Both the position numbers and the translations under genes were made by a program. A stretch of 41,658 nt of DNA, from contig JAPJNH010000065.1 in the NCBI GenBank assembly GCA_026461075.1, forward strand, positions 1 to 41,658. Direction: 5' to 3'. A model generated the notes under the pieces. It made no database searches. It had not been told where the DNA came from and saw only the letters and a program-made list of their open reading frames with translations. This document shows positions 4,464-6,005 of this stretch, piece after piece (positions within the stretch are counted from its first letter, which is position 1; each line of letters opens with the position of its first letter). Source of the stretch: Chitinophagales bacterium (GTDB lineage Bacteria; Bacteroidota; Bacteroidia; Chitinophagales; CAIODY01).

Positions 4464-5144
4464 ATGGAGCCGGCAACGCTTTATATCGTTCCAACGCCTA
4501 TCGGCAACTTGGAGGATATCACCTTGCGCGCCTTAAAGGTGCTGAAGGAGGTCGACACCATTCTGTGTGAAGACACGCGCACTAGCTCCTATTTATTGAA
4601 GCATTACGAAATCACGCGCCCGCTACAGGCCTATCACCAACACAACGAACATAAGGTTACGCAGCAGTTGGTGGAGCGTTTGTCGGCAGGAGAAAAAATG
4701 GCGATGATTAGTGATGCGGGCACCCCGGGCATTTCCGATGCTGCTTTTTTATTAATCCGCGCCTGCCATGTGGCGGGTGTTAAAGTAGTTTGCCTCCCTG
4801 GCGCTACAGCACTGATCCCCGCATTAGTTGCTACAGGATTCCCCACCGACCGATTTACATTTGAAGGCTTTTTGCCGCATAAAAAAGGAAGGCAAACACG
4901 CATTAAAGCCATCAGCCAGTCTGATTGCAGCGTAGTGATGTATGAGAGTCCGCACCGTTTGGTAAAACTCATTGATGAGTTTATCGAATTCGCTGGTCCG
5001 GAACGCATCGCTGCCGTAAGCCGTGAGCTTACCAAGCATTTTGAAGAAAACAAACGCGGCCCCCTAACGGAGCTCAAAGCGTATTACGAAAAACATCCCC
5101 CGAAAGGAGAGATCGTGTTTATTTTGATGGGAGAAAAACACTAA
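4464..5144 (+). CDS. rsmI: 16S rRNA (cytidine-1402-2'-O)-methyltransferase
   Basis: RsmI 2'-O-methylates C1402 in the decoding centre of 16S rRNA using S-adenosylmethionine. The 226-residue protein opens with LYIVPTPIGNLEDIT, followed by CEDTRTSSYLLKHY, the SAM-pocket segment ISDAGTPGISD, CLPGATALIPAL, FEGFLPHKKG and YESPHRL. All are hallmark motifs of the tetrapyrrole-methylase-fold RsmI family. It is shorter than the E. coli enzyme of about 286 residues because it ends soon after EIVFILMG; short forms are common in this phylum. It is the last gene of the pssA-purS-rsmI operon, and the 5145-5806 repeat array starts directly after its stop. Confidence 0.95.
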   Translation: MEPATLYIVPTPIGNLEDITLRALKVLKEVDTILCEDTRTSSYLLKHYEITRPLQAYHQHNEHKVTQQLVERLSAGEKMAMISDAGTPGISDAAFLLIRACHVAGVKVVCLPGATALIPALVATGFPTDRFTFEGFLPHKKGRQTRIKAISQSDCSVVMYESPHRLVKLIDEFIEFAGPERIAAVSRELTKHFEENKRGPLTELKAYYEKHPPKGEIVFILMGEKH

Positions 5145-5160
5145 TTTTTTTGAATTAAAA

Positions 5161-5257
5161 ATTAAAAATGAAGAATTAAGAATTGTTTAATGGTTCACTT
5201 TTCTAAGAACATGACAAAACCAATTCTTAATCTTTAATTCTTAATACTTAATTAAAA
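5161..5257. repeat. 97-bp palindromic repeat, copy A
   Basis: It begins ATTAAAAATGAAGAATTAAG and ends near CTTAATTAAAA. AAGAATTG on the left faces CAATTCTT on the right, so a transcript could fold into a long imperfect hairpin with a central loop of about 45-50 bases (TTTA...ATGACAAAAC). Copies B and C have the same 97-base length without indels. This copy lacks the 49-base upstream extension. Confidence 0.8.
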
Positions 5258-5330
5258 ATGGTTCCCCACTGCCCCATAGAAGGTAATGCGTCAAAATGGA
5301 GATTTGGTGTAGCGTAAAAGCGAAATCCCC

Positions 5331-5345
5331 GCTCACGAAGTGAGC
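5331..5345. repeat. Short perfect inverted repeat
   Basis: GCTCAC and GTGAGC are perfect reverse complements separated by GAA. It lies between repeat copies A and B. No function is assigned. Confidence 0.6.
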
Positions 5346-5408
5346 TTTGTTCGCTGGCGAAACCAAACGAACATTTTAGCATTAGATTCTTTAAGGGCGA
5401 TTTTTTAC

Positions 5409-5431
5409 TCCACTTTTTGGGAAAAAGTGGA
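5409..5431. repeat. Perfect inverted repeat, 10-bp arms
   Basis: TCCACTTTTT and AAAAAGTGGA are perfect reverse complements around GGG. It lies 26 bases before the 146-bp repeat copy B and is not followed by a T-tract, so it is not called a terminator. Confidence 0.65.
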
Positions 5432-5456
5432 AAAGAAGCTAAAGAAAGTTTACATA

Positions 5457-5602
5457 CACATTATTTTCAGATTCGTGAGACACGAACCTGTGGCAAGTAT
5501 TTTAAATTAAAAATGAAGAATTAAGAATTGTTTAACTGTCCACTTTTCCTAGGATATGACAAAACCAATTCTTAATCTTTAATCCTTAATCCTTAATTAA
5601 AA
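5457..5602. repeat. 146-bp repeat, copy B (contains the 97-bp element)
   Basis: The first 49 bases carry an inverted repeat around ATTCGTGAGACACGAAC (one mismatch in the arm), then GTGGCAAGTATTTTAA. The 97-bp palindromic element follows at 5506-5602. It aligns base for base, without indels, with 5656-5801. Confidence 0.82.
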
Positions 5603-5615
5603 AAAGGCCTTCAAC

Positions 5616-5652
5616 TTGGTTCGTCCCGAATGTTCGGGACCCCACGAACCAA
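5616..5652. repeat. Nested palindrome
   Basis: Outer arms TTGGTTCGT (5616-5624) and ACGAACCAA (5644-5652) enclose an inner hairpin CCCGAA / TTCGGG (5625-5638). The outer arm shares GGTTCGT with the small palindrome inside the 146-bp repeats, so the two are probably related. Confidence 0.7.
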
Positions 5653-5655
5653 TAA

Positions 5656-5801
5656 CACGTTATTTTCAGGTTCGTGAGACACGAACCTGTGGCAAGTATT
5701 TTAAATTAAAAATGAAGAATTAAGAATTGTTTAGCTATCCACTTTTCCCAGGACATGACAAAACCTATTCTTAATCTTTAATTCTTAATACTTAATTCAA
5801 A
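5656..5801. repeat. 146-bp repeat, copy C (contains the 97-bp element)
   Basis: This is the second full copy. Its small palindrome is perfect here: AGGTTCGTG, spacer AGA, CACGAACCT at 5668-5688. The 97-bp element occupies 5705-5801 and runs straight into the terminator shared by rsmI and the ribosomal-protein unit. Confidence 0.82.
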
Positions 5802-5834
5802 AAAAAGGCCTCGCAATTTGCGAGGCCTTTTTTT
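5800..5834. terminator. Bidirectional intrinsic terminator
   Basis: GGCCTCGC and GCGAGGCC form a perfect GC-rich stem around AATTT (5807-5827), flanked by an A-tract on the left and a T-tract on the right. It can end the pssA-purS-rsmI transcript on plus and the rpmB-rpmG-DUF4295 transcript on minus, whose last stop lies four bases away. Confidence 0.88.
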
Positions 5835-5837
5835 AAC

Positions 5838-6005
5838 TTATCCTTTCAAGTGATCAGCTAGGTTATCTTTATGAACCATTGCTTCTTTGAACACATAAGC
5901 ACCAGACTTAGGTGAACGTTCACACTTAATAACTTTAGTGTAGGCCTTGGCATTCGGATCGATCGAACCTTTGGCCTTAATTGCGGTTTTTGCTTGCTTA
6001 GCCAT
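5838..6005 (-). CDS. DUF4295 small basic protein
   Basis: This is a 55-residue basic protein starting MAKQAKTAIKAKGS, with a core YTKVIKCERSPKSGAYVFKE followed by a short acidic-basic tail. The core matches the DUF4295 family, a Bacteroidota-specific small protein encoded beside rpmB and rpmG and thought to be ribosome-associated. The location here, eight bases after the rpmG stop, fits exactly. In many relatives ftsY follows; here the terminator at 5800-5834 comes next instead. The molecular role is not established. Confidence 0.85.
   Translation of the reverse strand: MAKQAKTAIKAKGSIDPNAKAYTKVIKCERSPKSGAYVFKEAMVHKDNLADHLKG

Follow-up and report, generated by a model that had tools for sequence, protein, structure and literature searches.

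Extragenic repeats are known to serve as landing sites for mobile DNA in bacteria. The elements IS1397 and ISKpn1, both of the IS3 family, insert into the REP palindromic units of enterobacteria (PMC1525189). A different class of repeat is formed by TAACTGA heptamer direct repeats, which occur in Beggiatoaceae, Cyanobacteria and some Bacteroidetes, the latter having other heptamers as well, and are found mostly just upstream of start codons (PMC4679880). Insertion of IS3 elements into REP palindromes and heptamers carrying stop codons are thus both already known. In the open-access literature, however, we found no description of IS elements that target heptamers in Bacteroidetes or of an IS3 element using heptads at gene ends, and no paper on the particular repeat sequences considered here.

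The window, i.e. the whole stretch of 41,658 nucleotides analyzed, from a Chitinophagales bacterium, contains three copies of a 97-bp palindromic element in an intergenic region. In our reading, this element is probably the fossil insertion site of an IS3-family element within facing tracts of 7-base units (heptads), later copied locally; what had been guessed to be a regulatory element would thus be replaced by a traceable history. By analogy, the best precedent would be the insertion of IS1397 and ISKpn1 into REP units, since here too an element of the IS3 family prefers dispersed extragenic palindromic repeats and lies within the palindrome in intergenic DNA. Unlike the conserved REP core used by those elements, the target in this case is a period-7 tract that varies by site and by species, and an apparent 2-bp target duplication and many one-end stubs are further differences, along with the fact that the present system is known from sequence alone. 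The arms resemble REP/BIME elements in being dispersed extragenic palindromes that serve as IS targets and are enriched away from divergent (promoter) regions, but they are variable period-7 arrays in which a conserved core, as found in REP/BIME, was not seen. With the TAACTGA repeats they share intergenic 7-base units whose stop codons yield stops in all frames; they differ in that the units are not TAACTGA but AATTAAR, GTGAAKR or similar, follow stop codons in the sense direction, and form imperfect arrays that often face each other.

Organization of the array

As stated in the first-pass annotation, the array is flanked by genes whose 3' ends converge on it. On its left, rsmI (4464-5144, plus strand), encoding 16S rRNA (cytidine1402-2'-O)-methyltransferase (TIGR00096, E = 4e-71, above cut-off), ends at 5144 facing the array, while on its right the first minus-strand gene (5838-6005) ends at 5838; from its translation we take this small gene to be DUF4295-like, and the minus-strand genes beside it to be rpmG and rpmB. 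The three copies, at 5161-5257, 5506-5602 and 5705-5801, align over 97 columns with no gaps. Identity to copy 2 is 91% for copy 1 and 92% for copy 3, and the full-length BLAST matches between copies (E = 6e-33 to 3e-45) are not due to chance. For RsmI, the best named matches among the records searched are 65% identical, and they point to Bacteroidota.

The extra bases that copies 2 and 3 had been said to share upstream are real, and belong to 150 nt in common with 93% identity (5456-5605 and 5655-5804). The upstream part of this duplicated unit occupies 5456-5505 in its first copy, where it holds the palindrome TTCGTGAGACACGAA, and 5655-5704 in its second. The homology continues downstream into AAAAAAAGGCCT (5599-5610 and 5800-5811), which is half of a terminator-like hairpin: in copy 3 it makes up the left-hand side of a perfect inverted repeat of 17 nt whose ends are poly-A/poly-T (5800-5834), whereas copy 2 keeps that half only, as a truncated terminator at 5599-5610. 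The inverted repeat ends in TTTTTTT, lies next to the stop codon of the DUF4295-like gene and, judging from its sequence, is likely a bidirectional intrinsic terminator. Given the shared block and the AAAAAAAGGCCT half left in copy 2, copies 2 and 3 are the product of a local segmental duplication of about 155 bp with its edge within the terminator, copy 3 being probably in the ancestral place.

Each copy consists of two arms and a loop. In copy 1 the 5' arm (5161-5185) is contained in a sense-oriented tract of AATTAAR heptads that follows rsmI (5152-5185), the loop spans 5186-5216 on the plus strand, and the 3' arm (5221-5257) is made of heptads read on the minus strand. Copy 2 has its 5' heptad arm at 5506-5530, its loop at 5531-5561 and its minus-strand arm at 5565-5602; the corresponding positions in copy 3 are 5705-5729, 5730-5760 and 5764-5801. 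Some details of the initial description had to be amended. The loop had been given as 45-50 bases long, while the gap from AAGAATTG to CAATTCTT is 35 nt; exact facing octamers are not present in every copy, one arm octamer of copy 3 being broken (CTATTCTT); and the edges of the supposedly exact 97-bp element are not sharp, as its arms belong to a period-7 tract reaching upstream of copy 1 (5152-5169).

A BLAST comparison of the array with plasmids gave no match. In the genome of a sister species of the same genus, whose RsmI is 99% identical, the region downstream of rsmI is too different (other repeats, another downstream gene) to date the array. At this same place the sister species carries three tandem copies of a different unit of about 119 bp, and the change of downstream gene there makes the repeat-rich end of rsmI a synteny break.

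The loop matches the right end of an IS3-family element

The three loops have the consensus TTTAACTGTCCACTTTTCCNAGGACATGACA, a match to the right terminal repeat (IRR) of an IS3-family element. This match extends over 24 of 31 bases in copy 1, the tip of the IRR stub being at 5216, and over 26 of 31 in copies 2 and 3, while no other place in the window matches at more than 20. The loop of copy 2 was also recovered by BLAST with the IS right end, and that of copy 3 with an IRR pattern allowing 3 mismatches, for which the reversed control gave 0 hits. The conserved loop of the 97-mer is an IS3 IRR, and the earlier suggestion that its conservation pointed to a mobile element was well founded.

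The genome from which the window derives (2.5 Mb in 166 contigs) has one intact IS of this type, on contig C6. It is about 1.27 kb long, has the ends TGTGACGTCCAGAACAAAAGTAGACA (left) and GTCCACTTTTTTCAGGACATGACA (right), and encodes orfA (298-663) and orfB (768-1490). OrfB scores 231.9 bits against NF033516 (IS3 family, cut-off 160) and contains the rve domain PF00665 (E = 4e-22), while the HTH_Tnp_1 match of orfA (24.0 bits) is slightly below the cut-off of 24.1. This is the architecture of IS3 elements, with an orfB carrying an IS3-type DDE/rve integrase core preceded by an HTH-encoding orfA. The terminal inverted repeats are imperfect, with TG...CA ends; in the sister species they are TGTAACGTCCTGAAAAAAAGTAGACA and TGTCTTGTCCTGAAAAAAGTGGACA, which are alike after a one-base gap. 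In another genome (G032, contig C32), a related IS3 element has downstream of orfB, in the right subterminal region, a succession of repeats resembling the IRR (CTGTCAACCTGTTTCAGGGATAAC and variants).

The arms are period-7 tracts located at gene ends

A search of the genome with the 97-mer gave 78 matches, and only those to the three adjacent copies are full-length in direct orientation; the remaining ones cover mostly arms alone. These arm-type matches are tracts of the 7-base units AATTAAG, AATTAAA and ATTAAGG, which are mostly located directly after stop codons and in the sense direction. As 7 equals 1 modulo 3, a repeated unit with one TAA or TGA gives stops in all frames. Runs of TTAA-containing heptads were found 12 times in 26 kb of intergenic DNA, versus 0.1 in mononucleotide shuffles. 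Averaged over the whole intergenic DNA, autocorrelation at lag 7 gave no signal, because the arrays are rare, and a local array scan was needed: over 0.44 Mb of the genome it detected 14 intergenic arrays of period 7, against 0-2 for each other period from 4 to 12. With regions delimited by simple ORF calls, arrays were present in 5/23 convergent regions versus 4/159 others (p = 0.002) and in 0/50 divergent regions; when the sister species was included, the figures were 7/43 convergent regions versus 4/287 others (p = 9e-5). The proposal that the repeat was REP-like therefore holds in the sense that its arms are a dispersed repeat class located at gene ends. Since the heptads follow stop codons, read in the sense direction and are enriched between convergent genes, the palindrome of the 97-mer can be understood as what results when two sense-oriented tracts of the same dialect converge. 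Intergenic repeats of another kind, of the ATCGCGA/TTCGCGTA type, with high CG and an apparent period of 7 or 14 bases, were noticed in the same genome around 9100-9300 of contig C99.

These data bear on two other ways of looking at the element. That the 97-mer is a structured RNA, as had been suggested, or a bidirectional transcription terminator with its stem under selection, seems improbable to us. It does lie between convergent genes and folds better than shuffled sequences (z = -2.0 to -3.6), but this only restates the inverted repeat. No compensatory change was seen in the arms: of the 19 outer-stem pairs, 18 are invariant and the one that varies is broken, and the only double change affects a pair of the 5-bp hairpin within the IS end, a number reached by 282 of 500 shuffles, in a test that is weak with three related copies only. 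Furthermore, a GC-rich terminator-like hairpin already exists at 5800-5834, and heptad units differ at orthologous gene ends. No Rfam family matched the 97-mer at a meaningful score; with a loose E-value, all matches over the array were below gathering scores and resulted from the terminator and from the AT-rich hairpin.

Least probable of all, and very much so, is a MITE-like family moving as a 97- or 146-bp unit, an idea suggested by a palindromic, repeated and intergenic element whose arms are dispersed. A MITE would have both terminal inverted repeats and would have moved as a unit with target duplication, whereas here there is a single IS terminus, the 97 bp are covered by the three adjacent copies only, and copies 2 and 3 share their flanks as in a segmental duplication. 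Elsewhere in the genome arms and loop recur independently, as arms or as the loop with part of an arm. According to the first-pass annotation, a genome with no further copies and arms lacking compensatory changes would point to a mere local duplication of AT-rich sequence. Both observations were indeed made, but each component of the element is dispersed in the genome, so that more than a local duplication has to be invoked, and we favor a fossil IS3 insertion between facing heptad tracts.

Intact IS copies lie beside heptads in the sister species

The sister species has at least five copies of the IS, each broken by contig ends. All five readable right flanks are period-7 arrays in a strict test, versus 1.6% of random intergenic windows, the heptads directly past the right tip being TTCATTA, TTTTCCC, TTCACTC, TTAACTA or TTCACCC. 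By eye, 4/5 left flanks consist of heptads or of a small palindrome embedded in them, but only 2/5 passed the strict test. When flanks were joined, 2-bp duplications (CT, CT, CC, CT and GG) became apparent, with four of the five flank pairings assigned by us and one, that of contigs C27 and C12, backed by synteny with contig C99 of the window's genome. Target duplications in the IS3 family are usually 3-5 bp long. A distantly related IS from a different family of the order (OrfB 48%) likewise ends at 7-base units. It is thus likely, in the small sample of five insertions in one species, that this IS3 element prefers to insert in or beside heptad tracts. Nature would thereby offer a replicated example of an IS3 element that picks period-7 repeats at gene ends, its target being set less by sequence than by periodicity and position.

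Solo stubs derive from the right end

Isolated IS ends were searched for with 70 bp of each end of the elements of both species, outside intact copies and with E < 0.01. Seven stub sites were obtained, counting the three copies in the window as one, and all of them derive from the right end, the tip being intact in each and the inner edge ragged; the same search gave no left-end stubs. Further stubs of this right end are on contigs C22, C99, C119 and C71, and in the window's genome several stubs coexist with only one intact IS. A stub was also seen after the same gene in both species (contig C161 in the window's genome, C14 in the sister species). Its tip is in each case the variant proper to that species (TGTCATGTCC or TGTCTTGTC), which looks as though the resident IS had converted the stub or supplied it anew.

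The abundance of stubs relative to intact elements and the uniform preservation of the right tip could suggest that the stub is itself an active miniature unit, i.e. that short right ends were placed in heptads by one-ended or aborted IS transposition rather than being remnants of deletions. We consider this unlikely, although somewhat less so than the RNA and MITE alternatives: at the site where contig C99 has a stub, the sister species has the whole IS, as expected from decay, stub lengths vary, and target duplications flanking the stubs are not in evidence. The strict right-end bias is unexplained by simple deletion, yet it could arise from deletions running through the left flank. Deletion is most likely the route from IS to stub, and no intermediate between the two was seen at the array locus.

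The succession of events that we propose would be as follows. Many genes of this Bacteroidota lineage end in sense-oriented, purine-rich 7-base units, each with TAA or TGA, and convergence of two such genes would bring their tracts face to face in an AT-rich palindrome. The IS3-family element, with its apparent 2-bp target duplication, would prefer these heptad tracts, a preference presumably residing in the transposase. One copy would have entered the palindrome at the array and then shrunk to some 30 bp from its right end, and the resulting unit (arm, IRR stub, arm and half terminator) would have been duplicated locally and later diverged.

Heptads differ between species at the same gene ends

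Fifteen gene ends of the window's genome were picked for their AATTAAR heptads, and 14 of them had orthologs in the sister species. By eye, clearly different sense heptads (GTGAATA, GTGAAGG, AAAGTGA) were present at 6 of these 14 orthologous ends, weaker or mixed tracts at 3, AATTAA-type units at 2, and none at 3. In the strict test, 6/14 of the orthologous ends had period-7 arrays, versus 3/105 background 3' ends (p = 6e-5). Thus the same gene ends may carry AATTAAG in one species and GTGAAKR or GGGAAAA in the other. Among named Bacteroidota loci, period 7 also leads, with 20 arrays against 10 of period 8, and facing arrays exist in further dialects, such as AATTAGG/CCTAATT in Sediminibacterium roseum; AGTGAAG/CTTCACT arrays were found facing each other in a Chitinophagaceae MAG.

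Tentatively, and with more doubt than conviction, these observations could be taken to mean that heptad tracts are a maintained feature of gene ends in Bacteroidota, constant in where they lie, in their period of 7, in their sense orientation and in giving stops in all frames, the unit of which is swapped as a species dialect by some active rewriting process, and which serves IS3 elements as landing pads. The different heptad sequence at orthologous ends of sister species is in our opinion the most surprising part of this work and the most worth following. If dialect replacement is true, gene 3' ends of this phylum would carry a fast-rewritten repeat, something that a comparison of strains could test.

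A covarying hairpin and other small palindromes near the array

Between copies 1 and 2 there is a separate dispersed hairpin repeat, R2 (5266-5402, plus strand), of about 135 bp. About ten copies exist in the window's genome and fewer in the sister species (contigs C101, C156, C64, C121, C6, C134, C127, C122 and C146 of the former, and C14 of the latter). R2 folds with z = -3.98; five pairs have changed on both sides and 97.7% of cells are paired, and for four of five measures the observed values were reached by 0-2 of 500 shuffles. In Rfam, no family matched R2 at gathering score, and none was convincing at a loose threshold. The structured element hoped for in the first reading of this region is therefore R2, next door, and not the 97-mer; R2 may represent either a structured RNA or a mobile hairpin of miniature type.

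R2 is followed by a small palindrome, CCACTTTTTGGGAAAAAGTGG (5410-5430), and other R2 copies have a TCCCGA..TCGGGA palindrome at the same point. Short TCCCGA..TCGGGA palindromes with varying middles are found inside heptad tracts and R2 copies as if inserted (loci L014, L017, L029, L044, L205, L207, L216, L258, L259, L271 and L297), and in the heptads of the sister species they often have GTGA on both sides. Another palindrome, TTCGTG(AGA/TCT)CACGAA, is present in the window at 5468-5490 and 5667-5689, and in both orientations at many intergenic loci of the two species; the outer bases of these copies differ and mostly still pair.
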